Shown: positions 22,017-40,166 of the stretch, one piece after another
How the letters are laid out: each line of letters begins with the position of its first letter
Numbering within the stretch: the first letter of the stretch is position 1
NCBI RefSeq assembly: GCF_016901035.1
Contig: NZ_JAFEUF010000024.1
Span: 2,058-50,514 of the forward strand
DNA length: 48,457 nucleotides
From: Streptomyces durocortorensis
Lineage (GTDB): Bacteria; Actinomycetota; Actinomycetes; Streptomycetales; Streptomycetaceae
Reading direction: 5' to 3'
The notes under the pieces: generated by a model
The model's database searches: none
What the model was told of the DNA's origin: nothing
Seen by the model: the letters and a program-made list of their open reading frames with translations, nothing else
Program-made: the position numbers and the translations under genes

Positions 22017-22448
22017 TCAGCCGTGTCCGGCGCAGGGCCCGCTGTGGTCGCAGTACGGAGTGTTGCCGGTGGCGCCGCAGCCGCAGAGCATCACCCGGGT
22101 CTCGTGGCGGGGCCCGTACGGGGTGGCGACCTCCAGGTCCCCGCGCACGTGCAGTACGCCGTCGGCGTGGAGCGACACATGGGTGGGGACGTCGGGGACC
22201 TCGTCGGGCATGCCGTCGGTGCGGTGGTACTGGAGGGCGCCGCTCGGGCAGCGGTGGATCTCGGCGGCGACCTCCTCGGCGGGGGCGTTGTCGGGCTGGA
22301 CCCAGGGACGGCGGCCGACGTCGAAGACGGTGGGAAGGCCCCGCACGCATTCGGCGGCGTGCAGGCAGCGGCCCGCGTCGAAGCCGACGACGATGCCCTC
22401 GCCGTCGTAGGACTTGGCGGCGGGGCGCGGGGGCGGCTGGCTGGTCAC
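22017..22448 (-). CDS. Ferredoxin-like (Fer4_19/YjdI) plus CDGSH-type Fe-S protein
   Basis: A 143-aa soluble protein with two Fe-S modules. The first (about residues 14-75) has Cys28, Cys34 and Cys67 in CLHAAEC and RCPSGAL, as in the YjdI-type divergent 4Fe-4S/mono-cluster ferredoxins. The second (about 85-143) is a CDGSH-like domain with Cys122, Cys124 and Cys133 in LCGCGATGNTPYCDHSG. Canonical CDGSH proteins use Cys3His with the His four residues after the third Cys; here that place is Gly137, and a His sits at 135 instead. The GTG at 22448 follows GGGAGA. It is likely an electron carrier or cluster-transfer protein. It is on the same strand as ridA but about 85 bp away. Confidence 0.8.
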   Translation of the reverse strand: MTSQPPPRPAAKSYDGEGIVVGFDAGRCLHAAECVRGLPTVFDVGRRPWVQPDNAPAEEVAAEIHRCPSGALQYHRTDGMPDEVPDVPTHVSLHADGVLHVRGDLEVATPYGPRHETRVMLCGCGATGNTPYCDHSGPCAGHG

Positions 22449-22533: not shown

Positions 22534-22935
22534 TCACGGGAGGACCGCGACCCCGTCGATCTCGACCATCGCCTGCTCGTCCCAGAGCCGGGCGACCCCG
22601 ATGACGGCCATCGCCGGGTAGTCGCGCCCCGCGAGCGTGCGCCAGATCCGCCCCAGCTCGGGGGCGTGGGAGCGGTAGTCGGCGACGTCGGTGGCGTAGA
22701 CGGTGACCCGGGCGAGGTCGGCGGGGGCGCCGCCGGCCGCGTGGAGAGCGGTGAGCAGATTGCCCAGCGCCAGGGCGAACTGCTCGGGCAGGGTGGCCCC
22801 GACGACCTTGCCGTCCGGGTCGAGCGCGGTCTGCCCGGCGAGGAAGACCAGGTGCCCGCCGGTGGCGACGACCGCGTGGCTGAAGCCGGTGGGCGGGGAG
22901 AGTTCGGACGGGTTGATCCGGTGGGACGGGCTCAT
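22534..22935 (-). CDS. RidA/YjgF (L-PSP) family deaminase
   Basis: A 133-aa member of the RidA family, which hydrolyses reactive enamines and imines to ketones and ammonia. Recognisable parts are LVFLAGQTALDPDGKVVG, QFALALGNLLTALHAAGGAPADLARVTVY (in pieces), and AVIGVARLWDEQAMVEIDGVAVL. The usual Arg after the GV segment (IGVARL) that binds carboxylate is present. The ATG at 22935 overlaps the acyl-CoA dehydrogenase stop (ATGA), so the two are coupled. In the Azoarcus 2-aminobenzoate clusters a homologous protein, then called a putative translation inhibitor, is also encoded. Here it probably removes the amino group of a ring-reduced enamine intermediate; that step is inference. Confidence 0.9.
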   Translation of the reverse strand: MSPSHRINPSELSPPTGFSHAVVATGGHLVFLAGQTALDPDGKVVGATLPEQFALALGNLLTALHAAGGAPADLARVTVYATDVADYRSHAPELGRIWRTLAGRDYPAMAVIGVARLWDEQAMVEIDGVAVLP

Positions 22936-24098
22936 GCGGGCGGCTCCTGGGTGAGGCCCACGGGATCCACGTGCTCGTGGGCGGCGGCGTTCGCGTACAG
23001 CTCCTTGGCGATGATCGTGCGCTGCACCTCGCTCGCGCCCTCGTAGATGCGCGGCGCGCGGACCTCGCGGTAGAGGTGTTCGAGCAGATGGCCCCGGCGC
23101 AGGGCGCGGGCGCCGTGCAGCTGGACGGCGGCGTCGACGACGTACTGCGCGGTCTCGGTGGCGTACAGCTTGGCCATCGCCGCGCGGCGCGGCACCCCGC
23201 TCTCCCCCGCGTCGTACGCCGCTGCCGCCGCGTACACCAGCAGGCGGGCGGCCTCGGTGCGGGTGGCCATCTCCGCGACCTGGTGCGAGACGGCCTGGAG
23301 GTCGCTCAGCGGGCCGCCGAACGCGGTGCGCTGGGCGGTGTGGTCCAGGGTCGCGTCGAGGGCGGCGCGGGCCATGCCCACGGCGAAGGCGCCGACGCTG
23401 GGCCGGAAGAGGTTGAGGGTGTTCATCGCGACCCGGAAGCCCCGGTCGGGTTCGCCGAGTACGTCGTCGACGGTGACCGGTACGCCGTCGAACTCCAGGG
23501 TGCCGATGGGGTGCGGGGAGAGCATGTCGAGGGCGGAGCCGGTGAGTCCGGGGCGGTCGGACGGGACCAGGAACGCGGTGATGCCCCGGGAGCCCGCACC
23601 GGGGGTCGTCCGGGCGAAGACCACGGCGAAGTCGGCCTCGGGGGCGTTGGAGATCCAGCACTTCTCGCCGGTGAGCGCCCAGCCGTCCCGGGTGTGCTCG
23701 GCGGCCAGGCTCAGGGCCGCCGCGTAGGAGCCCGCCCCCGGCTCGCTCAGCGCGAACGCGGCGACGGCCCGCCCGGCCCGGACCTCGGGGAGCCAGCGAT
23801 CACGGTGGGCGGGGGTGCCCGCCTGGACGATCGGGGTGGTGCCGAGGCCCTGGAGGGCGAGCGCCGTCTCGGCCTCCGTGCAGCCCCGGGCCAGCGACTC
23901 CCGCAGCAGGCACAGGTCCAGCGCGCCGGAGCCCAGCATCCGGCCGAGGAGGCCCAGCTCGCCGAGGGCGGCCAGCAGCGGACGGTTGACCCGCCCGGGC
24001 TCCCCCTTCGCCGCGAGCGGGCGCAGCTCCCGTTCGGCGAGGGTGCGCAGCTCCTCGCACCAGGCGGTCTGTTCCGGTTCGAGGGAGAATGCCGTCAT
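22932..24098 (-). CDS. Acyl-CoA dehydrogenase
   Basis: A 388-aa FAD flavoprotein of the acyl-CoA dehydrogenase family, which makes a 2,3-double bond in an acyl-CoA. Seen: AFALSEPGAGSYAAALS in the FAD/substrate region, WALTGEKCWISNAPEADF, and the C-terminal IYEGASEVQRTIIAKELY, the position of the Glu-containing motif in many members. I chose the ATG at 24098, with AGAGGCG upstream; the frame is open to 24152 without homology. It overlaps ridA by 4 bp and is divergent from the aryl-CoA ligase. In this setting it would act on a non-aromatic alicyclic CoA intermediate of 2-aminobenzoate breakdown. Straight-chain fatty acid use cannot be excluded. Confidence 0.92.
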   Translation of the reverse strand: MTAFSLEPEQTAWCEELRTLAERELRPLAAKGEPGRVNRPLLAALGELGLLGRMLGSGALDLCLLRESLARGCTEAETALALQGLGTTPIVQAGTPAHRDRWLPEVRAGRAVAAFALSEPGAGSYAAALSLAAEHTRDGWALTGEKCWISNAPEADFAVVFARTTPGAGSRGITAFLVPSDRPGLTGSALDMLSPHPIGTLEFDGVPVTVDDVLGEPDRGFRVAMNTLNLFRPSVGAFAVGMARAALDATLDHTAQRTAFGGPLSDLQAVSHQVAEMATRTEAARLLVYAAAAAYDAGESGVPRRAAMAKLYATETAQYVVDAAVQLHGARALRRGHLLEHLYREVRAPRIYEGASEVQRTIIAKELYANAAAHEHVDPVGLTQEPPA

Positions 24099-24193
24099 GG
24101 CGGCGCCTCTCTTGTCGCGTCGTGTCGCGTGCCCCGTCGCGTCGGGTGGCATCTCGTCGCATCGCTTCGCACGCCATGGCTTATCGCGGACCG

Positions 24194-24221
24194 TTGACTA
24201 CCGTCACCCAAACGATACGCT
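24194..24221 (+). promoter_or_regulatory. Promoter candidate for the aryl-CoA ligase operon
   Basis: TTGACT (24194-24199) and TACGCT (24216-24221) with a 16-bp spacer fit a primary-sigma promoter, placing transcription start about 20 nt before the ATG at 24249. The spacer contains CCGTCAC, the same 7-mer as one half of the palindrome before the enoyl-CoA hydratase gene, so it may be the regulator's site. Confidence 0.5.
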
Positions 24222-24248
24222 CCAGAGGCGACAAGGGGGCGATCCTTC

Positions 24249-25973
24249 ATGGAGCCGAATTCCTCGCCGAACACGCCCACAGCCGCCGCCGACGCGTCCG
24301 TACGCGTCCCCGGCGCGCCTCACGAGCCGACCAGGCACGCCACCGGCGCCCACACCGACACCTTCGCGCGCGACCATCTCCCGCCGCCGGAACAGTGGCC
24401 GGAACTCCTCTTGGACGATCCGGCGCCGCGTTACCCCGACCGGCTGAACTGCGGACACGAGCTGCTGGACCGCACGGTCGAGGAGTACGGCGCCGACCGT
24501 CCCGCGCTGCGCTCCGGCGACGGGAGCGTCTGGAGCTACGGCGAGCTGCGGGAGACCGTGGACCGCATCGCCCATGTGCTGACGGACGACTTGGGCGTGG
24601 TGCCGGGCAACCGGGTGCTGCTGCGCGGTCCGACCACGCCCTGGCTGGCCGCCTGCTGGCTCGCCGTCATGAAGGCGGGCGCGGTCGCCGTCACCGTACT
24701 GGCGCAGGCGCGCGCCACGGAACTGGCCACCATCTGCTCGCTTGCGCGGATCAGCCACGCCCTGTGCGACGCCCGGTCCATGACGGATCTGGCGGAAGCG
24801 GACGTGGACGGGCTGCGGATCACCCTGTTCGGCGGGGACGGGCCCGAGGACCTCACCCGGCTGGCGGAGCGCAGGTCCGGTCCGTTCCGGACGGTGGACA
24901 CGGCCGCCGACGAGGTCGCGCTCATCGCGTTCACCTCGGGAACCACCGGGCGCCCCAAGGGCTGTATGCACCTGCACCGGGACCTCCTGGCCATAGCCGA
25001 CACCTTCTCCCGCCATGTGCTGCGCCCCTCGGCCGACGACGTGTTCGCGGGCAGCCCGCCGCTGGGCTTCACGTTCGGCCTGGGCGGGCTGCTGGTCTTC
25101 CCGCTGCGGGCCGGGGCCTCGACGCTGCTGCTGGAGCAGGCGGGTCCGCAGCACCTGCTGCCCGCACTGGTGAAGCACCGGGTGTCGGTGCTGTTCACCG
25201 CGCCCACGGCCTACCGCACGATGCTCGGGCAGTTGGACGGCCACGACCTGTCGGCGCTGCGGCGCTGCGTGTCGGCCGGGGAGAACCTCCCCGAGGCGAC
25301 CTGGCGGGCCTGGCGCGAGGCGACGGGGCTGCGCATCATCAACGGCATCGGGGCCACCGAACTGCTGCACATCTTCATCTCGGCCGCGGACGACGCGATC
25401 CGGCCGGGCATGACGGGGCTGCCGGTGCCGGGCTGGCAGGCCCGGGTGGTGGACGAGCACGGCGACGAGCTGCCGGACGGCGAGCCGGGCCTGCTCGCCG
25501 TGCGCGGCCCGGTCGGCTGCCGCTACCTCGCCGACCCCCGGCAGACGGAGTACGTCAGGCACGGCTGGAACATGACCGGCGACGCCTTCGTCCGCGAACC
25601 GGACGGCTACTTCCGTTACGTGGCCCGCGCCGACGACATGATCATCTCCTCCGGGTACAACATCGCGGGCCCCGAGGTGGAGGACGCCCTGCTGCGCCAT
25701 CCGGAGGTCGCGGAGGCGGCCGTGGTGGGCCGGGCGGACGAGCTGCGCGGCGAGATCGTGGTGGCGCACGTGGTGCTGACCGAGGGGTCGGAGCAGACGC
25801 CCGACTCGCTGCGCGCCCATATGAAGGCCAACCTGGCCCCGCACAAGTGCCCGCGCCTCTTCGTCTTCGAGGAGTCCCTGCCGCGTACGGCGACCGGCAA
25901 GCTCCAGCGGTTCCTGCTCCGGGAAGACGTCCGAAATGACCTCCGGGAGGACCTCCGGAAAGACAGAGCCTAG
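24249..25973 (+). CDS. 2-aminobenzoate-CoA ligase (AMP-forming)
   Basis: A 574-aa acyl-adenylate-forming enzyme. Motifs: the phosphate loop FTSGTTGRPKGCMHLHRD, GIGATELLHIF in the A5 region, YVRHGWNMTGDAF, YVARADDMIISSGYNIAG at the hinge, and the catalytic Lys near the end in LPRTATGKLQR. The LHIF after GATE and the HRD after the P-loop fit the benzoate/2-aminobenzoate-CoA ligase branch rather than acetyl- or long-chain-acyl ligases. It activates an aromatic acid with ATP and CoA, the first step of this pathway. The start at 24249 has AAGGGGGCG 8 nt upstream. A PaaX-type regulator follows after 9 bp and is probably cotranscribed. The substrate is inferred from the monooxygenase/reductase partner; salicylate is the main alternative. 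Confidence 0.85.
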   Translation: MEPNSSPNTPTAAADASVRVPGAPHEPTRHATGAHTDTFARDHLPPPEQWPELLLDDPAPRYPDRLNCGHELLDRTVEEYGADRPALRSGDGSVWSYGELRETVDRIAHVLTDDLGVVPGNRVLLRGPTTPWLAACWLAVMKAGAVAVTVLAQARATELATICSLARISHALCDARSMTDLAEADVDGLRITLFGGDGPEDLTRLAERRSGPFRTVDTAADEVALIAFTSGTTGRPKGCMHLHRDLLAIADTFSRHVLRPSADDVFAGSPPLGFTFGLGGLLVFPLRAGASTLLLEQAGPQHLLPALVKHRVSVLFTAPTAYRTMLGQLDGHDLSALRRCVSAGENLPEATWRAWREATGLRIINGIGATELLHIFISAADDAIRPGMTGLPVPGWQARVVDEHGDELPDGEPGLLAVRGPVGCRYLADPRQTEYVRHGWNMTGDAFVREPDGYFRYVARADDMIISSGYNIAGPEVEDALLRHPEVAEAAVVGRADELRGEIVVAHVVLTEGSEQTPDSLRAHMKANLAPHKCPRLFVFEESLPRTATGKLQRFLLREDVRNDLREDLRKDRA

Positions 25974-25982
25974 AGTGATCAC

Positions 25983-26801
25983 GTGGCCGAGTTGCGCACC
26001 CCCCGTTCCCTGATCATCACGCTCTACGGCGCGTACGGCCGTCCGGCGGACGGCTCGCCGTTCGCGGTGTCGGAGCTGATCCGCCTGCTGCACGCCGTGG
26101 GCGTCGACGCCCCGTCCGTACGCTCCTGCGTCTCGCGGCTGAAGCGGCGCGGGCTGCTGGTGGCCGCCCGGGCCGGGGACGGCTCGGCGGGGTACGCACT
26201 GTCGCCCGACGCCCGGCAGCTGCTGGACGACGGGGACCGGCGGATCTACCGGCACCCCGCGCCGAGCCTCGCCGACGGCTGGGTGCTCGCGGTGTTCTCG
26301 GTACCCGAGGCGGAGCGCAGCAAGCGTCATGTGCTGCGCTCCCGGCTGGCCCGCCTCGGCTTCGGCACGGCGGCCCCCGGGGTGTGGATCGCGCCGGCCG
26401 GGCTGTACGAGGAGACCCGGCACACCCTTCAGCGGCTCGAACTCGCCCCGTACGTCGACCTGTTCCGCGGCGAGCACCTCGGCTTCGCCGCCACCCGCGA
26501 GGCGGTGGCCCGCTGGTGGGACCTGGACACGGTGGCGCGGCTGCACCACGACTTCCTGGAGCTGCACGAGCCGGTGCTGCGGGACTGGGAGGCGTCCGGA
26601 GCCGACGGCCCGCCCCGCCCGCAGACCGCCTACCGGGACTATCTGCTGGCGCTGGACTCGTGGCGGCAACTCCCCTACGCGGACCCGGGACTTCCCGCGG
26701 AGCTGCTGCCCGCGGACTGGCCGGGCGGCCGGTCGGCGGAGGTGTTCGGTCGGCTGCACGAGCGGCTGCGGGACTCCGGGGAGCTCTTCGTACGGGAGTG
26801 A
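25983..26801 (+). CDS. PaaX family transcriptional regulator
   Basis: A 272-aa regulator related to PaaX, the phenylacetyl-CoA-responsive repressor. The N-terminal winged helix has RSLIITLYGAYGR, a recognition helix region APSVRSCVSRLKRRGLL, then the mid-domain DGWVLAVFSVPEAERSKRHVLRSRLARLGFGTAAPGVW (given in part) typical of PaaX, and a C-terminal YRDYLLALDSWRQLPYADPGLP segment. It starts at a GTG 9 bp after the ligase gene. By analogy it would sense an aryl-CoA made by the ligase and control this cluster. It differs from Azoarcus, where the 2-aminobenzoate clusters carry a MarR-type regulator. Confidence 0.9.
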   Translation: MAELRTPRSLIITLYGAYGRPADGSPFAVSELIRLLHAVGVDAPSVRSCVSRLKRRGLLVAARAGDGSAGYALSPDARQLLDDGDRRIYRHPAPSLADGWVLAVFSVPEAERSKRHVLRSRLARLGFGTAAPGVWIAPAGLYEETRHTLQRLELAPYVDLFRGEHLGFAATREAVARWWDLDTVARLHHDFLELHEPVLRDWEASGADGPPRPQTAYRDYLLALDSWRQLPYADPGLPAELLPADWPGGRSAEVFGRLHERLRDSGELFVRE

Positions 26802-26840
26802 GGCAGCCCGGCACGCAGAAGGGACGGACACGTCGGGTTG

Positions 26841-27419
26841 TCAGACGCGGCCCAGCTCGGCAGCGCCGAAGGAGACGTCGAACCGGTCGCACCAGATGCT
26901 GATGCTCGTGAAGGCCGCCGGGTCGAGGCCCGCGGGCAGCCGGTAGTTGTGGGATCCCTTGTTGCCCTTCAGCCTGCCGAGGCTCTCGTGGCGACCGTCG
27001 TCGAAGACGAACCAGCCCGCCCGCCCCTCCTTCACCGGTGCGTCGGTCAGCCAGACCCTGAGATCCGGGCCGTTGCTGGTGTCGAGGTCCTCCAGCCGCA
27101 CGATGTGCGAGCCGTCGGCGAGCCGCAGCAGCTTCACGGTGCCGGACGTGGCGTGCTCGTGACTGATGAGGTTGCCGGAGGCCACCGTCACCGGCGCCGC
27201 CCGGTCGGGGCCGGGAGCCTGTTGCGGCGTCGCCGCCCGGCTCGCGGAGGTGTCGGCGGACTCCGCGGCCGTCGCCTCGGGCAGGGCCTCCCGCACGGTC
27301 TCGTCCTGCCACAGCTTCCAGGGCTGGAACCAGCAGAGCCCCACGCCCACCAGCACCACGGCCACTGCCAGGGCCCCCGCCACCATCGGCCGCGTCAGAG
27401 TTCCGCGCACCCGTCCCAT
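26841..27419 (-). CDS. DM13-domain membrane-anchored protein
   Basis: A 192-aa protein with a short basic start, one N-terminal helix (MVAGALAVAVVLVGVGLCWF), a Thr/Ala/Pro-rich linker, and a C-terminal DM13 domain (about 85-190). That domain begins GNLISHEHATSGTVKLL and ends with SISIWCDRFDVSFGAAEL, including the single conserved Cys and the LKGNKGSHNYRLP block. DM13 domains are proposed to carry electrons or bind a redox cofactor outside the cell. The ATG at 27419 is preceded by GGAGGAACC. It is convergent with paaX and breaks up the catabolic cluster; no link to the aromatic pathway is visible. Confidence 0.88.
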   Translation of the reverse strand: MGRVRGTLTRPMVAGALAVAVVLVGVGLCWFQPWKLWQDETVREALPEATAAESADTSASRAATPQQAPGPDRAAPVTVASGNLISHEHATSGTVKLLRLADGSHIVRLEDLDTSNGPDLRVWLTDAPVKEGRAGWFVFDDGRHESLGRLKGNKGSHNYRLPAGLDPAAFTSISIWCDRFDVSFGAAELGRV

Positions 27420-27613
27420 TCCGGTTCCTCCACTACATCGGCTCGCCGGATACACTCCCTCCGGTCCGGAGCACCATCCAATCCGACCGACCCCACCCGC
27501 GGCGACCGCTCCCGGATGACGAGAGTCTTACGGCATCACCGCCGCCGGACGCCGGGGAGCGGGTTCTTCGTGCGCGGGACAGCGCTCTGGGCGCGGGGGA
27601 TACGGAGGGACAC

Positions 27614-28069
27614 ATGACTGCGGAGTCCGTGACGCCGCAGCCCGTGACGCCCGAGCTGCTGTGGCTCGTCGCCGCCAACGTGGTGCGGTGGCGGCGGTAC
27701 GGGGACGGCGGGCAGAAGTTGCGGCCGGGGACGAAGTCGTACCGGGGCGGGGCGAAGGTGTACGTCGTCGACACCTACCCGGGCATGGGGCATGAGCAGG
27801 TGACCACCATCGGGCGGGCCCGCACCGGCCGTTGGATCACCGTCGACACGGGCTCGCGCCATCTGCACACCTTCCGGGCCAAGCAGGTGTTCGCGCCGGC
27901 CGTGCTGCGGCGGGCCGACTCGATCGCGGTGCGCCCGCAGACCCGGGAGGAGGCCCAGGAGCTGGCCGCGCTGCTGGAGCGGCTCGCCGCCACGTACCGC
28001 GAGACCCACCACGGCGCACCCCACCCCACGCCGTGCCTCTGCCACACGTGTCTGGTCACCCCAGGGTGA
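27614..28069 (+). CDS. Hypothetical conserved protein
   Basis: A 151-aa soluble protein that I do not assign to a named family. Features: a beta-like segment VVRWRRYGDGGQKLRPGTKS then GGAKVYVVDTYPGMGHEQ, a WITVDTGSRHLHTFRAKQVF block, a helix QTREEAQELAALLERLAA, and a Cys-containing C-terminus PCLCHTC that could bind a metal. There is no signal peptide or membrane helix. GGAGGGACAC precedes the ATG. Its last 14 bp overlap the 3' end of the convergent monooxygenase/reductase gene. Confidence 0.75.
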   Translation: MTAESVTPQPVTPELLWLVAANVVRWRRYGDGGQKLRPGTKSYRGGAKVYVVDTYPGMGHEQVTTIGRARTGRWITVDTGSRHLHTFRAKQVFAPAVLRRADSIAVRPQTREEAQELAALLERLAATYRETHHGAPHPTPCLCHTCLVTPG

Positions 28070-30347
28070 GCCGGGGTTTCGGGGCGTCCGTACGGCCGGT
28101 GGGCGGGGTGCGGCTGCCCGCGTCGTACGGGAGGGGCCAGGGCGCGCCCGGTCCGGTGTAGCCCTGTTCGGCCGCCGCGTGGAGGGTCCAGTGCGGGTCG
28201 TACAGGTGGGGGCGGGCCAGGGCGCAGAGGTCGGCGCGGCCCGCGAGGAGAAGGGAGTTGACGTCGTCCCAGGAGGAGATCGCGCCGACCGCGATGACGG
28301 GGACGTCCACGGAGTTGCGGATCCGGTCGGCGTACGGGGTCTGGTACGAGCGGCCGTATTCGGGGCGCTCCTCGGGCACGACCTGGCCGGTCGAGACGTC
28401 GACGGCGTCGGCCCCGTGCTCGGCGAAGGCGCGGGCGATCGTGACGGCGTCCTCGGCGTCGGTGCCGCCATCGGCCCAGTCGGTTGCGGAGATCCGCACG
28501 GTCATCGGCCGTTCCTCCGGCCATACTTCGCGCACGGCGTCGAAGACTTCGAGGGGGAAGCGGAGGCGGCCCTGCAGGGTTCCGCCGTAGGCGTCGGTGC
28601 GACGGTTGGTGAGCGGGGAGAGGAAGCCGGAGAGCAAGTAGCCGTGGGCACAGTGCAGTTCGAGGAGGTCGAAGCCGCTGCTCGCGGCGCGCCGGGCGGC
28701 CGCCACGAACTGCTCGCGCACGGCGTCGAGTCCGGCCCGGTCCAGCTCGGCGGGGACCTGACTGACGCCGGGGGCGTACGGGAGCGGGGAGGCAGCTGCC
28801 AGGGGCCAGTTGCCGCTGTCCAGGGGCTGGTCGATGCCCTCCCACATGAGCTTGGTGGAGCCCTTGCGGCCGGAGTGGCCGAGCTGGACGCCGATGGCAG
28901 CGCCGGGGGCGGAGGTGTGGACGAAGTCGGTGATCCGCCGCCAGGCCGCCGCCTGTTCGTCGTTCCACAGGCCCGTGCAGCCGGGGGTGATGCGGCCCTC
29001 GGGGCTGACGCAGACCATCTCGGTCATGGTGAGTCCGGCGCCGCCGAGCGCGCGGGCCCCGAGGTGGACGAGGTGGAAGTCGCCGGGGAGCCCGTCGGTG
29101 GCGGAGTACATGTCCATCGGGGAGACGACGACGCGGTTGCGCAGCTCCAGGCCGCGCAGCCGGAACGGGGTGAACATCGGCGGGGTGCCGGGCGGGCAGC
29201 CGAACTCCTCCTCGACGGCGGCGGTGAACGAGGCGTCGCGCAGCCGGAGGTTGTCGTGGGTGACCCGGCGGCTGCGGGTGAGCAGGTTGAACGCGAAGCG
29301 CCGGGGCGGCTGGTCGACGTAGTGGGCCAGCTCCTCGAACCAGCGCAGACTGGCCGCGGCCGCCCGCTGGGTCGAGGCGACGACCGGGCGGCGCTCGGCC
29401 TCGTACGCCGTCAACGCGGACGGCAGGTCGGGCTGTTCCTCGACACAGGCGGCGAGCGCGAGGGCGTCCTCGACGGCGAGCTTGGTGCCGGAGCCGATGG
29501 AGAAGTGGGCGGTGTGGGCCGCGTCACCGATGAGCACGGTGTTGCCGTGGGACCAGCGGGAGTTGGTGACCGTACGGAAGGCGAGCCAGGAGGACCGGTT
29601 GCCGCGCAGGGGGCGGCCGTCCAGGGCCTCGGTGAAGAACTTGGCGCAACGGGCGGTGGATTCGGCCGGGTCACAGGTGTCGAGCCCCGCGGCGCGCCAC
29701 ACCTCCTCGCGCATCTCGACGATGACGGTGGAGGCGTCGGCGGCGTACGGGTAGCCGTGCAACTGCATGACGCCGTAGGGCGTTTCGGCGACCTCGAAGC
29801 GGAAGGCGTCGAGCGCGAAGTCGGCGGCGAGCCAGATGTAGCGGTTGCGGTGTTCGGTGACGCTCGGGCCGAAGGCGTCGGCGTGCGCGGCGCGGGTGGC
29901 GCTGTGCACCCCGTCGGCGGCGATGACCAGGTCGTGGTGGGCGGCCAGCTCGGCGGCGGGCGGGGCCGGGGTGCGGAAGCGGAGGTCGACGCCGAGGGCG
30001 GCGCAGCGCTCGTGCAGGATCTCCAGGAGTCGGCGGCGGCCGAGGGCGGCGAAGCCGTGTCCGCCGGAGGTGTGGGTGCGGCCGCGGTGGGCGATGTCGA
30101 TGGTGTCCCAGCGGACGAATTCGCGGCCGAGGGCGCGGTACACCTCGGGGTCGGCGTGTTCGATGCCGCCGAGGGTCTCGTCGGAGAGGACGACGCCGAA
30201 GCCGAAGGTGTCGTCGGGGGCGTTGCGCTCGAAGACGGTGACCTCGCGGTCGGGGTCGAGGCGCTTGAGGAGCGCCGCGGCGTAGAGCCCGCCGGGGCCG
30301 CCGCCGATGACCGCGATGCGCCGCACGGCTGTGCTCTCGCGGGTCAT
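28056..30347 (-). CDS. 2-aminobenzoyl-CoA monooxygenase/reductase (flavoprotein fusion)
   Basis: A 763-aa two-domain flavoenzyme. Residues about 1-385 are an FAD aromatic hydroxylase: IAVIGGGPGGLYAAALLKR (GxGxxG), and VLIGDAAHTAHFSIGSGTKL (GD motif). Residues about 395-763 are an old yellow enzyme: PMFTPFRLRGLELRNRVVV, IGVQLGHSGRKGS, and LHCAHGYLLSGFLSPLTNRR with the His-x2-His-like substrate site. This fusion is the known architecture of 2-aminobenzoyl-CoA monooxygenase/reductase (about 87 kDa in Azoarcus), which hydroxylates and reduces the ring of 2-aminobenzoyl-CoA; database entries often call it salicylyl-CoA 5-hydroxylase/oxidoreductase. The ATG at 30347 lies 2 bp after the enoyl-CoA hydratase stop. 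It overlaps the convergent hypothetical gene by 14 bp. Confidence 0.92.
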   Translation of the reverse strand: MTRESTAVRRIAVIGGGPGGLYAAALLKRLDPDREVTVFERNAPDDTFGFGVVLSDETLGGIEHADPEVYRALGREFVRWDTIDIAHRGRTHTSGGHGFAALGRRRLLEILHERCAALGVDLRFRTPAPPAAELAAHHDLVIAADGVHSATRAAHADAFGPSVTEHRNRYIWLAADFALDAFRFEVAETPYGVMQLHGYPYAADASTVIVEMREEVWRAAGLDTCDPAESTARCAKFFTEALDGRPLRGNRSSWLAFRTVTNSRWSHGNTVLIGDAAHTAHFSIGSGTKLAVEDALALAACVEEQPDLPSALTAYEAERRPVVASTQRAAAASLRWFEELAHYVDQPPRRFAFNLLTRSRRVTHDNLRLRDASFTAAVEEEFGCPPGTPPMFTPFRLRGLELRNRVVVSPMDMYSATDGLPGDFHLVHLGARALGGAGLTMTEMVCVSPEGRITPGCTGLWNDEQAAAWRRITDFVHTSAPGAAIGVQLGHSGRKGSTKLMWEGIDQPLDSGNWPLAAASPLPYAPGVSQVPAELDRAGLDAVREQFVAAARRAASSGFDLLELHCAHGYLLSGFLSPLTNRRTDAYGGTLQGRLRFPLEVFDAVREVWPEERPMTVRISATDWADGGTDAEDAVTIARAFAEHGADAVDVSTGQVVPEERPEYGRSYQTPYADRIRNSVDVPVIAVGAISSWDDVNSLLLAGRADLCALARPHLYDPHWTLHAAAEQGYTGPGAPWPLPYDAGSRTPPTGRTDAPKPRLTLG

Positions 30348-30349
30348 GG

Positions 30350-31177
30350 CTACCGCCCCTGCCACTTCGGGGGCCGCTTCTCGGTGAAGGCGGCGTGGAA
30401 CTCGGCGTAGTCCTCGCCGTGCATCAGGAGGGCCTGGGTGTTGGCGTCGAGCTCGACGGAGGCGGCCAGCGGCATGTCCAGCTCGGCGGTGAGCAAGGCC
30501 TTGGTCTGGGCGAGGGCGAGGGCGGGTCCGTCGGCGAGGCGGCGGGCCAGCTCGGCGGCGCGCTCGTCGGCCTTCCCCTCCTCGGTCAGCTCGCTGATCA
30601 GGCCGATCCGCTCCGCCTCGGGGGCGCGGACGGCGTCGCCGAGCATCAGGAGCCGGGTGGCGTGGCCGAGGCCGACGACCCGGGGCAGCAGATAGGCCGC
30701 GCCCATGTCGCCGCCGGAGAGGCCGACCCGGGTGAAGAGGAAGGCGAAGCGGGCCGCGGGGTCGGCGATCCGGAAGTCGGCTGCGAGGGCCAGCACGGCT
30801 CCGGCGCCCGCCGCGACGCCGTGGACGGCGGCGACGACGGGGAAAGGGCACTCCCGCAGGGCCCGGACGACCTGTCCGGTCATCCGGTTGAAGTCGAGGA
30901 GCTGCGCGGTGTCCATGGCCAGGGTGGCACCGATGATCTCGTCGACGTCGCCGCCGGAGCAGAAGCCGCGCCCCTCCCCGGCGAGGACGAGGGCGCGGAC
31001 GGAGCGTTCGCGGGAGAGCTCGGCGAGGAGGTCGCGCAGATCGGCATAGGCGCCGAAGGTGAGCGCGTTGAGTTTCTCGGGGCGGGAGAATGTGACGGTT
31101 GCCACACCGCCGTCCCGGGTCAGCCGGAGATGACGCCATTCCTCGGTGCTCGGGGCCGAGCTGGGAAACGGGCTCAT
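30350..31177 (-). CDS. Enoyl-CoA hydratase/isomerase family protein
   Basis: A 275-aa crotonase-fold enzyme. It has VTFSRPEKLNALTFGAY, GRGFCSGGDVDEIIG for the first oxyanion-hole strand, and AAVHGVAAGAGAVLALAADFRIA with the second. The usual catalytic Glu positions near LPRVVG and the FTRVGLSGGDMGAAYLLPR segment agree with hydratase-like members, but the exact reaction is not fixed. AGGGGATC precedes the ATG. It is the first gene of the two-gene minus-strand operon with the monooxygenase/reductase, so it most likely adds water to, or opens, the ring-reduced CoA intermediate. The third beta-oxidation-type enzyme, a 3-hydroxyacyl-CoA dehydrogenase, is not found in the window. Confidence 0.88.
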   Translation of the reverse strand: MSPFPSSAPSTEEWRHLRLTRDGGVATVTFSRPEKLNALTFGAYADLRDLLAELSRERSVRALVLAGEGRGFCSGGDVDEIIGATLAMDTAQLLDFNRMTGQVVRALRECPFPVVAAVHGVAAGAGAVLALAADFRIADPAARFAFLFTRVGLSGGDMGAAYLLPRVVGLGHATRLLMLGDAVRAPEAERIGLISELTEEGKADERAAELARRLADGPALALAQTKALLTAELDMPLAASVELDANTQALLMHGEDYAEFHAAFTEKRPPKWQGR

Positions 31178-31253: not shown

Positions 31254-31269
31254 CGTGACTGCCGTCACG
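31254..31269 (-). promoter_or_regulatory. Operator-like palindrome before the enoyl-CoA hydratase operon
   Basis: CGTGAC (31254-31259) and GTCACG (31264-31269) form a perfect 6-bp dyad with a 4-bp spacer, about 80 nt upstream of the hydratase start. On the minus strand GTGACG overlaps the -35 place and GATAAC (about 31241-31246) can serve as the -10, with a spacer of about 16 bp. A protein bound to the dyad would block the promoter. The CCGTCAC half-site also occurs in the ligase promoter. Confidence 0.45.
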
Positions 31270-31465: not shown

Positions 31466-31915
31466 GTGCCGCCCGATGTCCCCGTCCCCGCCTCCTGGCG
31501 CATCGCCCTGCCGCACTCCACCGCGGCCGTGCCGATCGCCCGCGCTCTCATCCGTACGGCGCTGTCGGACATCGACGCCCCGGCCGACAGCGACACCGCC
31601 GAACTGCTGACCGCCGAACTGGTGGCCAACGCGGTCGAGCACACGCTGGGCGGTGAGCCCATCGAGCTGGTCGTGGAGCTGCTGCCGACCGGCTGCCAGG
31701 TCGAGGTGCACGACCGCGACCCCGCTCCGCCGGGCGACCTGTCCCGGCCGCAGCCGGGCTGTGAGGTCGATCCCTGGCAGGAGCACGGCCGCGGCCTGCT
31801 GCTCATCCGGACCCTCAGCTCCGCGTGCGGTCACCGCACCACGGAGCACGGCAAGGCCGTCTGGTTCACGCTTCCGGCGATACCGGCCCAGCCGGGTCCG
31901 TCCCCGGGGAGCTGA
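31466..31915 (+). CDS. Anti-sigma-type ATP-binding protein (HATPase_c_2)
   Basis: A small GHKL ATPase of the Streptomyces regulator type, related to SpoIIAB/RsbW. The N-box is ELLTAELVANAVEHTLG, the metal/adenine region VEVHDRDPAPP, and the G2 box HGRGLLLIRTLSSACG. I set the start at the GTG 31466 (149 aa, preceded by GGAAC). The frame is open to an ATG at 31289, but those 59 codons are full of codons rare in Streptomyces (TTG, AGA, CGA, CTT, TCT) and carry no homology. It may bind a sigma factor or anti-anti-sigma protein, or act as a stand-alone sensor partner; no partner gene is adjacent. The gap 31178-31465 otherwise holds only the hydratase promoter. Confidence 0.8.
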   Translation: MPPDVPVPASWRIALPHSTAAVPIARALIRTALSDIDAPADSDTAELLTAELVANAVEHTLGGEPIELVVELLPTGCQVEVHDRDPAPPGDLSRPQPGCEVDPWQEHGRGLLLIRTLSSACGHRTTEHGKAVWFTLPAIPAQPGPSPGS

Positions 31916-33353
31916 CCAGCCGGGAGCGCTTGCGCCCGTAACCGGCGTACAGCAGGGAGCCGACGGCCAGGAAGACCGCGAACTGGACCCAGGTCGTCCA
32001 GCCGGTCCCGTACATCAGATACAGGCAGAAGGCGACGCCCAGCAGCGGGCTGACCGGGTAGAGCGGCACCCGGAAGGTCCGCTTCAGCTCGGGATTGCGG
32101 CGTCGGAGCACCACCACCGCGACATTGACGGCGACCATCGTGGCGAGCGTGCCGATGGTCGTCAGGTTCACGACGACGTCGAGCGAGACGAAAGCGGCCG
32201 GGACCGCGAAGACGCTGGCGACGATCCAGGTGTTGGCGACCGGGGTGTGGGTCTTGGGCGAGACCCGTTCGAAGACGCGCGGAATCAGTCCGTCACGGGA
32301 CATCGACATCAGGATGCGGGTCTGCCCGTACATCACGGCGAGCACCACCGAGGCGATGGCGACGACCGCGCCGAAGGCGATGATGCCGCCGCCGACCGAG
32401 GAGTCGGTGACCTCGTTGACGGCGATCGAGAGAGCGGCGCTCTTGTTCGCGACGGCGTCCGAGCCGATCGCGCCGATGGCCGAGAGCGCCACCGCGCAGT
32501 AGAGCAGGGTGACGACGCCGATGCAGATCAGGATGGCGATCGGGATGTTCCGCCGGGGGTTCTTGACCTCTTCGCCGGCGGTGGTGATGGCGTCGAAGCC
32601 GATGTAGGAGAAGAACGCGAGCGACGCGCCCGCCGTGATCCCGCCGAGCCCGTGGGTGGCGAACGGCATGAGGTTGTCGTCCCGGAACGCGCTGAACGCC
32701 ACGGCGCAGAACGCGACGAGGATGCCGATCTTGAGGACCGCCATCGCGGCGGTGGCGGTGGCGCTCTCCCGGACACCGCGCACCAGCAGGGTGGCGGCCA
32801 TGGCGATCACGACGACGGCGGGCAGGTTGACCACACCGCCGTCACCGGGCCCGGAGGACAGGGCGGCGGGCAGTTCCCAGCCGAACAGGCTGTTCAGCAG
32901 CTCGTTGACGTACTGGCTCCAGCCCACCGCGACGGCGGAGACCGAGACGCCGTACTCCAGCAGCAGGCACCAGCCGACGAGGAAGGCGGTGCGCTCGCCG
33001 AGCGCCGCGTACGCGAAGGAGTACGAGCTTCCGGAGACCGGGATGGCGCTGCCCAGCTCCGCGAAGGACAGGGCGGTGAAGATGCAGGTGATCGCCGCGA
33101 GGACGAACGAGATCACGACGGCCGGGCCGGCCTCGGCGACGCTGTCGGAGAGCCCGACGAAGATGCCGGTGCCGACGATCGCGCCGACCCCGAAGCAGAC
33201 GAGCTGGAAGAGGCCCATCGTGCGCTTGAGGCCGTGGCCCTCCAGGTCGCCGCCGGATTCGGCGATGAGCTGGTCGGGGCTCTTGCGGCGCAGGTCCCGC
33301 TGGGGGAGGCCGGGGGGCTTCGGGGTGCCGGATCGCGGCAGACCGGTGCTCAT
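31866..33353 (-). CDS. APC-family amino acid permease
   Basis: A 495-aa transporter with 12 or so helices, beginning LFQLVCFGVGAIVGTGIFVG, the glycine-rich first-helix signature of the APC superfamily. It also has SGSSYSFAYAALGERTAFLVG and ASLAFFSYIGFDAITTAGEE. This subgroup (cationic amino acid transporter type) carries arginine, lysine or ornithine in several organisms. Next to ornithine carbamoyltransferase and arginine deiminase it may import arginine or exchange it for ornithine, but no specificity residue proves that. I chose the ATG at 33353; ATG 33368 is also possible. Its 3' end overlaps the convergent ATPase gene by 50 bp. Confidence 0.88.
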   Translation of the reverse strand: MSTGLPRSGTPKPPGLPQRDLRRKSPDQLIAESGGDLEGHGLKRTMGLFQLVCFGVGAIVGTGIFVGLSDSVAEAGPAVVISFVLAAITCIFTALSFAELGSAIPVSGSSYSFAYAALGERTAFLVGWCLLLEYGVSVSAVAVGWSQYVNELLNSLFGWELPAALSSGPGDGGVVNLPAVVVIAMAATLLVRGVRESATATAAMAVLKIGILVAFCAVAFSAFRDDNLMPFATHGLGGITAGASLAFFSYIGFDAITTAGEEVKNPRRNIPIAILICIGVVTLLYCAVALSAIGAIGSDAVANKSAALSIAVNEVTDSSVGGGIIAFGAVVAIASVVLAVMYGQTRILMSMSRDGLIPRVFERVSPKTHTPVANTWIVASVFAVPAAFVSLDVVVNLTTIGTLATMVAVNVAVVVLRRRNPELKRTFRVPLYPVSPLLGVAFCLYLMYGTGWTTWVQFAVFLAVGSLLYAGYGRKRSRLVSSPGTDPAGPVSPEA

Positions 33354-33485
33354 GCGGGACGTTCTCATCTCTGGTGGTGCAGTGGGGGGACGGCCCGTGC
33401 GCGGCGGCACAGGTATGGGGTTCGACCCTGCGGGGGTCTCCCCGGGTCCGAACCCCACCAAGAGCCGACATCGTAGCCACGACCG

Positions 33486-33594: not shown

Positions 33595-34599
33595 CTACTT
33601 CCCGGCCAGCGTCGCCACCAGCACGGCCTTGATCGTGTGCATCCGGTTCTCCGCCTGGTCGAAGACGACGGAGTGCGGCGACTCGAAGACCTCGTCGCTG
33701 ACCTCCAGCTCGGTCAGCCCGTACCGGGCGTGGATGTCCCGGCCGACCTGGGTGCCGAGGTCGTGGAAGGCCGGAAGGCAGTGCAGGAACTTCACGTCCG
33801 GGTTGCCGGTGGCCCGCAGGACGTCCATGGTCACGGCGTAGGGCCCGAGAGCGGCGATGCGCTCGGCCCACACCTCCTTGGGCTCCCCCATGGAGACCCA
33901 GACGTCGGTGGCGACGAAGTCGGCGCCCCGCACGCCCTCGGCCACGTCGCCGGTGAGGGTGATCGTCGCGCCGCTGACCTCGGCGAGCTTCCGGGCCCGC
34001 GCCACGACGGCCTCGTCCGGCCGGTACGCCTCGGGGGCGACGATCCTGACGTCCAGACCGAGCAGGGCGCCGGTGATCAGGTAGGAGTTGCCCATGTTGA
34101 AGCGGGCGTCGCCGAGGTAGGCGAAGGCCGCCCCGGCGAGGCCGCCGGCGCGGCACTCGGTCATGGTGAGGACGTCGGCCAGCATCTGGGTGGGGTGCCA
34201 GTCGTCGGTGAGCCCGTTGAAGACCGGCACCCCGCCGTACGCGGCCAGCTCCTCGACGGCCTGCTGGCTGTCGCCCCGGTACTCGATCCCGTCGAACATC
34301 CGGCCCAGCACCCGGGCGGTGTCCCGCACCGACTCCTTGTGACCCATCTGGGAGCCCGCGGGGTCGAGGTAGGTGGTGAAGGCGCCCTGGTCGGCGGCGG
34401 CGACCTCGAACGCGCAGCGCGTACGGGTCGAGGTCTTCTCGAAGATCAGCGCGATGTTCTTCCCGCGCAGCCGCTGGACCTCGGCCCCGGCCTTCTTGGC
34501 CGCCTTGAGCTCGGCGGCCAGCGCGACCAGGCCGAGGAACTCCTCGGAGGTGAAGTCCAGCTCCTTGAGGAAGTGGCGGCCGGTGAGGTCTATGGCCAT
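33595..34599 (-). CDS. argF: Ornithine carbamoyltransferase
   Basis: A 334-aa carbamoyltransferase with all main motifs: STRTRCAFE (carbamoyl-phosphate binding), DDWHPTQ, and [10 protein letters not shown] with the active-site Cys. The N-terminus ([17 protein letters not shown]) and the length agree with ornithine carbamoyltransferases, including catabolic ArcB forms. In the ADI pathway it works in reverse, making ornithine and carbamoyl phosphate from citrulline. The ATG at 34599 follows AGGAGCAG. It is 114 bp downstream of arcA on the same strand. Whether it is catabolic or biosynthetic cannot be decided from sequence, but the neighbour favours catabolic. Confidence 0.95.
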
Positions 34600-34656
34600 G
34601 ATGACTGCTCCTGGGTCTGGCGGGGATCGGCGCACTGCGCGCGGCAGAGCTGGAAG

Positions 34657-34683
34657 TCTATACGATCGACCGCATCTCTATAC
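34657..34683 (-). promoter_or_regulatory. 20-bp-spaced TCTATAC direct repeats between arcA and argF
   Basis: TCTATAC occurs at 34657-34663 and again at 34677-34683, exactly 20 bp apart, in an AT-richer island of the arcA-argF gap. On the minus strand each reads GTATAGA, which could be a -10 (TATAGA) or one of two sites on the same face of the helix. This suggests argF has its own regulated promoter. Confidence 0.45.
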
Positions 34684-34713
34684 AGGGCCGGGGGCTCCCG
34701 ATCAGCCGGCCTG

Positions 34714-35949
34714 TCATGCGACGGGATCCCGCTCCACCGGGCAGCTCATACAGCGCGGCCCGCCCCGCCCCCGGCCCAGCTCGCTGCCCCGGATCTCGAT
34801 CACCTCGATGCCCTGCTTGCGCAGATAGGTGTTGGTCGTCGCGTTCCGCTCGTACGCGACGACGACGCCGGGCTCGACCGCGAGCACGTTGCAGCCGTCG
34901 TCCCACTGCTCGCGCTCGGCCGCGTGCACGTCCTGGGTGGCGGTGAGCACCCGGATGGAGTCGAGGCCGAGGGCGGCGGCGATGGCACGGTGCATGTGCT
35001 CGGGCGGATGGTCGGTGACCTTCAGTTCGCGGGGGCCGCTGCCGGGCTCGATGGTGTACGAGCGGAGCATGCCCAGACCGGCGTACTGGGTGAAGGTGTC
35101 GCCGTCGACCATCGTCATCACCGTGTCCAGGTGCATGAACGCGCGGGCCTTGGGCATGTCGAGCGCAACGATCGTGCGCGCCGAACCGGCGTCGAAGAGG
35201 CCCCGGGCCAGCATCTCCACCGCCTGCGGCGTGGTGCGCTCGCTCATGCCGATCAGGACCGCCCCCTGCCCGATGACCAGGACGTCACCGCCCTCGATGG
35301 TGGAGGGGTAGTCGTCCTGCCCCTCCGACCAGTGGTGGAAGACGCCCGCCTCCGGGCCGGTGAAGAGCGGATGGTGCCGGTAGATGGCCTCGAAGTGGAC
35401 GGTCTCGCGCTGCCGGGCGGGCCAGCGCATCGCGTTGATGGAGACCCCGTCGTAGATCCAGGCCGAGGTGTCCCGGGTGAAGAGGTGGTTGGGCAGCGGG
35501 CCGAGGACGAAGTCGTCCAGGTCCATCACGTGGAAGCGGACGGAGGTCGGCTCGCTGTGCCGCGCCAGGAACTCCCGCTTGGTCATGCCGCCGACCAGTG
35601 CTTCCGCGAGCTCCTGGGAGGACAACTCCTCGAAGGCGGCCCGCAGATGCTCGGTGGCGAGCGGCCCGTACTCCTTCTCGTCGAAGACCCGGTCGAGCAC
35701 GAGGCGCCGGGCGACCGGGATGTCGAGGGACTCGCGCAGGAGGTCGCCGAAGAGGTGGACGGCGACCCCCCGGTCGCGCAGGACGTCGGCGAATCCGTCG
35801 TGCTCCTCCCGGGCGCGGCGCACCCACAGGACGTCGTCGAACAGGAGCGCGTCCTTGTTCCTGGGGGTGAGCCGCTTCAGCTCCAGATCGGGGCGGTGGA
35901 GTATGACGCGGCGCAGCCGCCCGGCTTCGGAGTCGACATGGAATCCCAT
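34714..35949 (-). CDS. arcA: Arginine deiminase
   Basis: A 411-aa guanidino-group-modifying enzyme that turns arginine into citrulline and ammonia. Motifs: the N-terminal [49 protein letters not shown] with the active-site His/Asp, [12 protein letters not shown], and the nucleophilic Cys region near the end ([13 protein letters not shown]). The length fits the usual about 410. The ATG at 35949 follows GGATGGAGA; an ATG/GTG further up to 35982 adds a non-conserved start. Unusually there are two Cys in RCMSCP; the first is the expected nucleophile. No arcC (carbamate kinase) is within the window, so energy recovery from carbamoyl phosphate would need a distant gene. Confidence 0.96.
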
Positions 35950-36037
35950 GTCTCCATCCTCACCGCGCGGAGCGCCGTTCACCCGGCGAATCGCCTACCG
36001 GTTGGACCCGGCCAGGATCCACCGGACGCCCCCTGGC

Positions 36038-38623: not shown

Positions 38624-40101
38624 GCGGCTTCCGCCTCCTTCGTCTTCTCGGTGCTCGCGCTGTTCTCCGTGCCCCGGGTGAACACGGCCATCTGGGTCGG
38701 CGGCCCCACCTCCGGGTCGTCCGGCCCGACCGGCACGTACCGGACGGTGTATCCGTGCCGTTCGGCGACCTGCCCGGCCCACTCCCGGAATTCGGCCCGG
38801 GTCCACTCGAAGCGGTGGTCCCCGTGCCGGGCGTGCCCGGCCGGGAGGGTCTCCCAGCGGACGTTGTACTCGACGTTCGGCGTGGTCACGACCACCGTCC
38901 CGGGGCGTGCGGCGCCGAACACCGCGTACTCCAGGGCGGGCAGCCGGGGCAGGTCCAGGTGCTCGACGACCTCGCTGAGCACGGCTGCGTCGTACCCCGT
39001 CAGCCGCTTGTCGGTGTAGGTCAGCGAACCCTGCCGCAGGGTGACCCGGTCGGCCTGGCGCTCCCCCATCCGGTCCAGCTTCAGCCGCCGCGAGGCGATG
39101 GTGAGGGCGCGCATCGAGACGTCGACGCCCACGATCTCGGTGAAGCGGACGTCCTTGAGGAGCGCCTGCACCAACTGGCCCTGCCCGCATCCGAGGTCGA
39201 GCACCCGGGTCGCCCCGGCGGCGCGCAGCGCGTCGAGGATCGCGGTGCGCCGGTGTTCGGCGAGCGGGACCGGCTTCTCCTCGGTGTCGGTGCTCTCGTC
39301 CACCGCGTTGTCGACACTGTCCACGTCGAGGTCGTCCGACTCGGCGAGCCGGACCAGCTCCAGGGCCTGGTCGGCCTGGCGCGTGAGCCCCCAGCGGTGG
39401 GACAGATAGCGCCGGGTGATCAGCGGCCGCTCGGGGTGGTCGGCCAGCCAGCCCTCCCCGGCCCGCAGCAGCTTGTCCACCTCGTCGGGCGCGACCCAGT
39501 AGTGTTTCGCGTCATCGAGCACCGGCAGCAGGACGTAGAGCTGCCGCAGCGCGTCGGCGAGCCGCAACTCGCCCTCCAGCACCAGCCGTACGTAGCGCGA
39601 GTCGCCCCACGCGGGGAACTGCTCGTCCAGCGGTACGGCCGTGGCCTCGACCCGCTCCCAGCCGAGCGGCGCGAACAGCTTGTGCACCAGCTCGACACCG
39701 CCCCGGGCGGGCAGGGCGGGCACCTCGATCCGCAGCGGCAGCGGGCTCTCGGCCCGCTCGGGCATGGCCCGGCAGACCCCGCCGAGCGCGGACTTGAACA
39801 CGGCGGCGAGGGCGACCGACAACAGCGAGGACGCCGCGTAGGGGCGGTCGTTGACGTACTGCGCGAGCGCCGCGTCGGGCGCGCCTCCCCGGCCCTTGCC
39901 CTTGCCGCGCCGCACCAGCGCCACCGGATCCACCTCCAGGAGGAGTGCGGCCGTGCAGCGCTCGGCGGGCGCCTCGGGGTAGAAGACGTGCGCGGAGCCG
40001 TGCGAGGTGGAGAACGCCTGCGCCTTGTCGGGGTGCTTGTGCAGCAGGAAGCCCAGATCAGTGGCGGGACGCTCTTGGGTGCCGGTCGTACCGATCGTCA
40101 T
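38620..40101 (-). CDS. hen1: Bacterial Hen1, 3'-terminal RNA ribose 2'-O-methyltransferase
   Basis: A 493-aa protein in two halves. Residues about 1-250 are the Hen1 N-terminal domain, starting LGFLLHKHPDKAQAF and including DRPYAASSLLSVAL, which activates Pnkp ligation. Residues about 275-470 are a SAM methyltransferase: VLDLGCGQGQLV (motif I), SEVVEHLDLPRLPA with the Glu-x2-Glu-His metal site, TTPNVEYNV, and GDHRFEW with a further His ligand. It methylates the 2'-OH of the repaired junction so it resists cleavage again. The ATG at 40101 has GGACAGG upstream; a GTG at 40107 is also possible. It is coupled to pnkp by a 4-bp overlap. Confidence 0.95.
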   Translation of the reverse strand: MTIGTTGTQERPATDLGFLLHKHPDKAQAFSTSHGSAHVFYPEAPAERCTAALLLEVDPVALVRRGKGKGRGGAPDAALAQYVNDRPYAASSLLSVALAAVFKSALGGVCRAMPERAESPLPLRIEVPALPARGGVELVHKLFAPLGWERVEATAVPLDEQFPAWGDSRYVRLVLEGELRLADALRQLYVLLPVLDDAKHYWVAPDEVDKLLRAGEGWLADHPERPLITRRYLSHRWGLTRQADQALELVRLAESDDLDVDSVDNAVDESTDTEEKPVPLAEHRRTAILDALRAAGATRVLDLGCGQGQLVQALLKDVRFTEIVGVDVSMRALTIASRRLKLDRMGERQADRVTLRQGSLTYTDKRLTGYDAAVLSEVVEHLDLPRLPALEYAVFGAARPGTVVVTTPNVEYNVRWETLPAGHARHGDHRFEWTRAEFREWAGQVAERHGYTVRYVPVGPDDPEVGPPTQMAVFTRGTENSASTEKTKEAEAA

Positions 40102-40166
40102 GAACACCTGTCCGAGTATGGTCGTCGCCCCCTGCCCCCACCAGGCATTTTCGCCCCGCCTGTCTA

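Follow-up and report, generated by a model that had tools for sequence, protein, structure and literature searches.

What does a Rid-family protein do in a gene cluster for aerobic 2-aminobenzoate (anthranilate) breakdown when it lacks the arginine by which RidA deaminases are recognised? The question is raised by a 48,457 nucleotide stretch of the Streptomyces durocortorensis genome (assembly GCF_016901035.1, contig NZ_JAFEUF010000024.1, positions 2,058 to 50,514; "the window" below means this whole stretch), in which six catabolic or regulatory genes lie in three units between window positions 22,534 and 31,177: an enoyl-CoA hydratase-family gene (ECH) followed by a 2-aminobenzoyl-CoA monooxygenase/reductase gene (ACMR) on the minus strand, a CoA ligase gene (LIG) followed by a PaaX-type regulator gene on the plus strand, and an acyl-CoA dehydrogenase gene (ACAD) followed by rid on the minus strand. 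A previous reading of this DNA from its letters alone (the sequence-only reading) had named these genes and units and had placed them in the 2-aminobenzoyl-CoA pathway; our family scans concur with the former and support the latter, predicted assignment. An actinobacterial version of the pathway with PaaX-type regulators is, by the available text of PMC3534580, already known from Arthrobacter sp. Rue61a and hence not new. Overall the pathway of this locus is known and its Rid protein is unusual; what goes beyond the sequence-only reading is the missing catalytic arginine of RidA, a Rid-less subtype of ACMR locus with an altered reductase site, and a conserved dyad.

The window Rid protein is placed in the Rid superfamily by its PF01042 domain and its predicted fold; the model, built from a 26-sequence alignment, has a mean pLDDT of 94.1 and TM values of 0.81-0.87 to the listed Rid chains. 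Alignment to solved Rid proteins with HMMER puts Met109 opposite an arginine (PAM versus PAR) that corresponds to RidA Arg105 and is reported to hold the substrate carboxylate. According to the available portions of PMC4433059, PMC5619798 and PMC8113886, an arginine of this type is both required for and predictive of deaminase activity. The window protein has the glutamate equivalent to Glu120 and lacks the catalytic arginine of RidA and Rid1-3 (imine deaminases), so the earlier identification as RidA stands for the family and falls for canonical RidA.

The substitution is general among relatives. Pathway-type Rids were gathered by profile from the loci examined (below), giving 134 strong matches (at least 110 bits, a cut chosen after the scores had been viewed) of which 132 are distinct; three weaker matches were excluded, of which L149 has a partial Rid (with PAM), L059 a truncated Rid and L158 a paralog. 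Residue 109 is Met in 118 of the 132, Thr in 4, Ile in 4, Val in 3, Leu in 3 and Arg in none, and the Glu125 position is Glu in every one. The window genome has nine PF01042 matches, and in a FastTree phylogeny of 38 sequences, outside which two of the eight non-pathway matches were left, the 32 pathway-type Rids (the window Rid being counted twice) stood apart from six same-genome paralogs with a support of 0.969. Paralog L002 has Arg in the Arg105 column, and paralog L001 has Ala there with Arg one column on and an alignment gap close by.

Co-occurrence of Rid with the monooxygenase/reductase

The sequence-only reading had Rid acting in the pathway after ring reduction, and comparison among genomes now supports such a role much more strongly than the original argument did. 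A survey of 246 genomes from the same phylum as the window found ACMR (E<=1e-145) in 33 and a pathway-type Rid in 34, with both present in 33; the Rid threshold, E<=1e-30, was chosen afterwards and falls in the gap from 1.5e-34 to 1.5e-27. The Rid-only genome (G217) is 83% complete. Rid and ACMR lie on one contig in 24 of these 33 genomes and on separate contigs in nine.

For a view of gene neighbourhoods, 123 ACMR loci were compared: 12 plasmid stretches (from 40 listed of 252 matching records), 31 genome stretches and 80 contigs (the best 80 of 529, biased to close relatives). Those with at least 7 kb to the left and 6.5 kb to the right of ACMR are called well-covered, and 77 of these 87 loci have a rid gene: 54 of 56 of the type with ECH and ACAD, 17 of 17 of the type with FAH, cupin and acyl-CoA thioesterase genes, six of eight others, and none of the six with a gentisate-dioxygenase-like gene. 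The other 36 loci, truncated where the contig or the stretch ends, divide into 19 with Rid and 17 without. The four well-covered Rid-less loci outside the dioxygenase type (L046, L076, L161 and L186) have a strong Rid match elsewhere in the record or genome, which for L046 and L076 lies just beyond the stretch. Rid is retained alongside two distinct downstream gene sets (ECH with ACAD, and FAH/cupin/thioesterase), and the place of its gene varies: it follows ACAD in Streptomyces and stands between ECH and ACMR in a further family of the order, in Arthrobacter and Rhodococcus it runs divergently from the FAH gene, and in proteobacteria it is among the last operon genes.

The six loci of the dioxygenase type (L077, L078, L162, L164, L170 and L184) carry gentisate/5-aminosalicylate-dioxygenase-like and nitrilase-like genes, with an FAH gene in five of them. 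TIGR02272 gives 322.1 bits for the L170 dioxygenase and 320.7 bits for that of L162, both under its 442.1 cut-off, and L170 additionally carries an Amdase-domain gene and L162 a cyclase/formamidase-like gene. The old-yellow-enzyme (OYE) site was compared in ACMRs of at least 650 residues, by which four of the 123 loci were dropped for length, and its positions are named by YqjM numbering. In the Rid-less ACMRs Y28 is kept in two of six, H164 in one, H167 in all six and Y169 in none, compared with 113 of 113 for each of the four in the remaining ACMRs; the Cys26 position is variable in both groups (Asp 91, Ala 16 and Cys 6 of 113; Ala 5 and Gly 1 of 6). The window ACMR has both of its domains, and its OYE residues Y416, H567, H570 and Y572 are intact. 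The L184 genome has a best Rid match of only 4e-21 and the L162 genome has none, and the genomes of L077, L078, L164 and L170 have a strong Rid elsewhere, each time beside ACAD and ligase genes. We read this subtype as one in which Rid is absent because the altered reductase site would give no ring reduction, and so no enamine; it is possibly a distinct aromatic-ring pathway.

Proposed route and its alternatives

The explanation that fits these observations best, and which we think is probably right, is that the cluster degrades 2-aminobenzoate as CoA thioesters, with Rid as the deaminase step and PaaX acting through the dyad (below). The ligase would convert 2-aminobenzoate to 2-aminobenzoyl-CoA, and ACMR would convert that to the enamine 2-amino-5-oxocyclohexenecarboxyl-CoA, steps that rest on the ACMR chemistry cited in PMC3534580. 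Rid would then hydrolyse the enamine to 2,5-dioxocyclohexanecarboxyl-CoA and ammonia, the crotonase-fold ECH protein and ACAD may act on the ring product, and generic 3-hydroxyacyl-CoA dehydrogenases encoded elsewhere may complete the breakdown. PaaX would repress the three units via the dyad and would probably be released by an aromatic acyl-CoA. Met, or in some Rids Ile, Leu, Val or Thr, may have taken the place of the arginine, with the glutamate kept, because the carboxyl group of the substrate would be a thioester. The comparative case for the Arg-less Rid as the candidate catalyst of the deamination step is strong, and we lean, with less assurance than for the explanation as a whole, towards pathway-type Rids being a separate class of acyl-CoA enamine deaminases that gave up the arginine since their substrates present the carboxyl as a thioester.

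The available text of PMC3534580 allows a comparison with Arthrobacter sp. Rue61a, in which anthranilate is degraded, its authors conclude exclusively, as CoA thioesters; two of its ligase genes give anthranilate-CoA ligase activity in E. coli, and two PaaX-related regulators take part in the control of its quinaldine degradation. The Arthrobacter pAL1 cluster (L039) is like the window in its ligase (Table 1), its ACMR (62% identical by tblastn), its Met-type Rid and its PaaX-type regulators, and unlike it in having FAH, cupin and acyl-CoA thioesterase genes in place of ECH and ACAD. Arthrobacter grown on anthranilate contained anthraniloyl-CoA and, exclusively under this condition, CoA esters with the acid formulas C7H7NO3 and C7H8O4, the latter ester being read by the authors as possibly cyclohexanedione-carboxyl-CoA (PMC3534580); the acid of the proposed Rid product is also C7H8O4, the formula of this anthranilate-specific ester.

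Other Rid proteins offer partial parallels. RutC, a 3-aminoacrylate deaminase, has the Rid fold and speeds up the hydrolysis of its pathway's enamine intermediate, but it needs Arg104, where the window Rid has Met and a proposed thioester substrate (PMC8113886). A Rid6-type protein of the nicotine degradation strain S33 is a predicted remover of a catabolic enamine, in another pathway (PMC7688666). COG0251 enamine deaminases are predicted in the BoxR and CatM/BenM regulons of Betaproteobacteria, which ties Rid to aromatic catabolism by comparative genomics; these are benzoate regulons, and the arginine site and the 2-aminobenzoyl-CoA route are untreated in the available text of PMC6449761. No tested role for a pathway-type Rid turned up in the literature, in which coverage of subscription papers is thin and earlier work is possible.

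Several points weigh against Rid as the deaminase. RutC R104A is inactive, the Rid4-7 members assayed so far have no deaminase activity (PMC8113886, PMC4433059), and the available portions of the literature report no Arg-less Rid with such activity. The Arthrobacter C7H8O4 metabolite was assigned by formula only (PMC3534580). Four same-genome Rid paralogs are also Arg-less (Trp in L003, Gly in L004, Ser in L007 and Ala in L008), so Arg-less Rids are not restricted to the anthranilate-CoA pathway. In three surveyed genomes (G191, G223 and G266) weaker Rids (1e-22 to 1e-27) occur without a full ACMR: two of these genomes have no ACMR match at 1e-60, and in the third just the OYE part is matched. 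The Rid profile includes two rows that derive from surveyed genomes (G000 and G013), the loci are non-independent (some contigs are present twice, for example L081 and L130, each on a contig of 154675 bases), and the Rid-less subtype comprises six loci, mostly from Streptomyces or relatives.

Could Rid instead be an accessory, with the enamine deaminated spontaneously or by another enzyme of the cluster and Rid protecting against reactive by-products or being non-catalytic? Non-enzymatic hydrolytic deamination of the enamine has been reported (PMC3534580) and the Arg-less Rids are without measured deaminase activity (PMC4433059, PMC8113886), both of which fit an accessory, but the co-occurrence of Rid with ACMR is near-perfect, Rid is kept in loci without the ECH and ACAD pair, and it is absent where the reductase site is altered, and we regard this explanation as unlikely. 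The retention of Rid in all 17 well-covered FAH/cupin/thioesterase loci, which have no ECH and ACAD pair, also leaves us with very little confidence that Rid has a later substrate, such as an imine arising after the overlapping ACAD, even though an in-frame ATG or GTG that would allow the 4-nucleotide overlap is present in 40 of the 45 loci with ACAD and Rid adjacent on the same strand.

A route from salicylate via salicylyl-CoA is suggested by the name of NF006101 (bifunctional salicylyl-CoA 5-hydroxylase/oxidoreductase), with which the window ACMR scores 1222.5 bits, above the 1078 cut-off. On such a route Rid would find no nitrogen to remove. No gentisate 1,2-dioxygenase is present among the eight window proteins scanned, and such a gene occurs in the six Rid-less loci; Arthrobacter, with a like ligase, ACMR and Rid, uses anthranilate but not salicylate for growth (PMC3534580 Table 2); and tryptophan dioxygenase-, kynureninase- or cyclase/formamidase-like genes occur in 13 of the 123 ACMR loci. 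We consider salicylate highly improbable as the substrate, and prefer degradation of 2-aminobenzoate with Rid as its deaminase.

Cluster layout, promoter dyad and neighbouring genes

Table 1. Features of the 2-aminobenzoyl-CoA cluster in window coordinates.
Feature	Position	Strand	Remarks
Rid-family protein, 133 aa	22534..22935	-	PF01042 67.5 bits (cut-off 27.3); Met109, Glu125; proposed enamine-CoA deaminase
Acyl-CoA dehydrogenase (ACAD)	22932..24098	-	Pfam acyl-CoA dehydrogenase domains above cut-off; 4-nt overlap with rid
12-bp dyad TGAC-N4-GTCA	24195..24206		Between divergent ACAD>Rid and LIG>PaaX; proposed PaaX operator
Benzoate/anthranilate-type CoA ligase (LIG)	24249..25973	+	53% identity (tblastn) to Arthrobacter pAL1 cluster ligase
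PaaX-type transcriptional regulator	25983..26801	+	PF07848, PF20803, PF08223 (N-terminal, central, C-terminal) all above cut-off
2-aminobenzoyl-CoA monooxygenase/reductase (ACMR)	28056..30353	-	FAD monooxygenase and OYE domain fusion; start GTG 30353 or ATG 30347
Crotonase-fold protein NF006107 (PRK08258), enoyl-CoA hydratase family (ECH)	30350..31177	-	397.7 bits, cut-off 330
Second exact TGAC-N4-GTCA copy	31256..31267		Upstream of ECH>ACMR

The dyad TGAC-N4-GTCA is the top shared word of the ACAD/LIG intergenic and pre-ECH regions and was counted afterwards in relatives. Its two copies in Table 1 are the only exact ones in the whole window, which by itself is weak, as seven of 100 shuffles also reach this number; a longer dyad pattern with one mismatch allowed occurs in the window as often as expected by chance (12 found versus 12.8 expected). 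Of the 49 loci that have ACAD, LIG, ECH and PaaX genes, 45 have the dyad in the divergent region, 48 before ECH and 44 in both, and further copies in these loci number 7 in 960,924 bases. In a comparison of 2304 dyads built alike (4-bp arms, spacing 0-8), with slightly different region limits, TGAC-N4-GTCA was in both regions in 43 of the 49 loci and the runner-up in 2. The case for the dyad is made by this conservation over 49 loci, by which it marks the putative promoters of all three units, and we infer that PaaX binds it. Arthrobacter pAL1 has an exact copy upstream of one PaaX-type gene and, between rid and the FAH gene, a copy with one mismatch, near-match dyads in this locus being at chance (15 found versus 11.4 expected). 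For MeqR2, one of the two PaaX-related regulators of Arthrobacter sp. Rue61a, Niewerth et al. reportedly described in 2013 a response to anthraniloyl-CoA and binding to the motif TGACG-NN-CGTCA.

Relatives with identical gene order exist, with ACMR identity of up to 86% among the best 80 of 529 contigs. The ligase resembles benzoate-CoA-ligase-like AMP ligases (TIGR02262, 333.8 bits, under the 375.25 cut-off), and the regulator is likewise under the equivalog cut-off of the phenylacetate-degradation PaaX model (TIGR02277, 152.2 bits versus 264.55). The crotonase-fold ECH protein, a solved close relative of which is PDB 3g64 (titled putative enoyl-CoA hydratase), seems, judging by crotonase motifs, to be without both hydratase glutamates and to resemble the isomerase site of PaaG. 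For Azoarcus evansii, Schuhle et al. reportedly described in 2001 a set of ligase, ACMR, enoyl-CoA hydratase, acyl-CoA dehydrogenase and RidA-like protein; the window cluster differs in its three units, its PaaX-type regulator and its lack of a 3-hydroxyacyl-CoA dehydrogenase.

The absence of that dehydrogenase, noted in the sequence-only reading, is borne out for the cluster and does not extend to the genome: there are ten PF00725 matches, by which the idea that the enzyme is truly missing was rejected, and a search beyond the window found that the SDR of an Ensifer cluster has 36 matches in the genome at E 1e-15, the best being 44% identical. That reading had also leaned on translational coupling of ACAD and rid. 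The overlap (ATGA) is there, but coupling was given up as the chief argument since it is lineage-specific and rid is placed differently elsewhere. A tryptophan-dioxygenase route as a local source of anthranilate is unlikely, there being no PF03301 match in the genome.

Two further genes inside the cluster look like bystanders that do not travel with it: the gene for a DM13 protein with a hydrophobic N-terminal stretch (26841-27455, minus strand) has no match at E 1e-8 across the 123 ACMR loci, and the gene at 27614-28069 has a match at E 1e-8 in only two of them (L071 and L112). Immediately downstream of rid is a gene whose small product has the iron-sulphur domains Fer4_19 and CDGSH (22017-22448, minus strand). 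On the other side of the cluster lie an amino-acid permease-like gene (31866-33461), its neighbours for ornithine carbamoyltransferase and arginine deiminase, which are adjacent (33595-35982, minus strand), and a bacterial RNA-repair pair made up of Pnkp (1391.3 bits with TIGR04075) and the methyltransferase Hen1 (676.5 bits with TIGR04074), each above its cut-off (36038-40107, minus strand).

Significance of the Arg-less Rid proteins

The name of NF006101 may mislead for members that lie beside a Rid gene, as in 77 of the 87 well-covered loci. The salicylyl-CoA name is repeated in plasmid records.

In the available literature Rid4-7 are termed mysterious, with no measured deaminase activity, because they are without Arg105. 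For the pathway-type clade both the pathway and a candidate substrate can be named, and nature supplies a negative control, by which the Arg105 rule becomes directly testable. If pathway-type Rids are acyl-CoA enamine deaminases, that rule would be valid for free-acid substrates only, other Arg-less Rids could deaminate enamines that have no free carboxylate, and the aerobic 2-aminobenzoyl-CoA pathway would have its deamination step filled.

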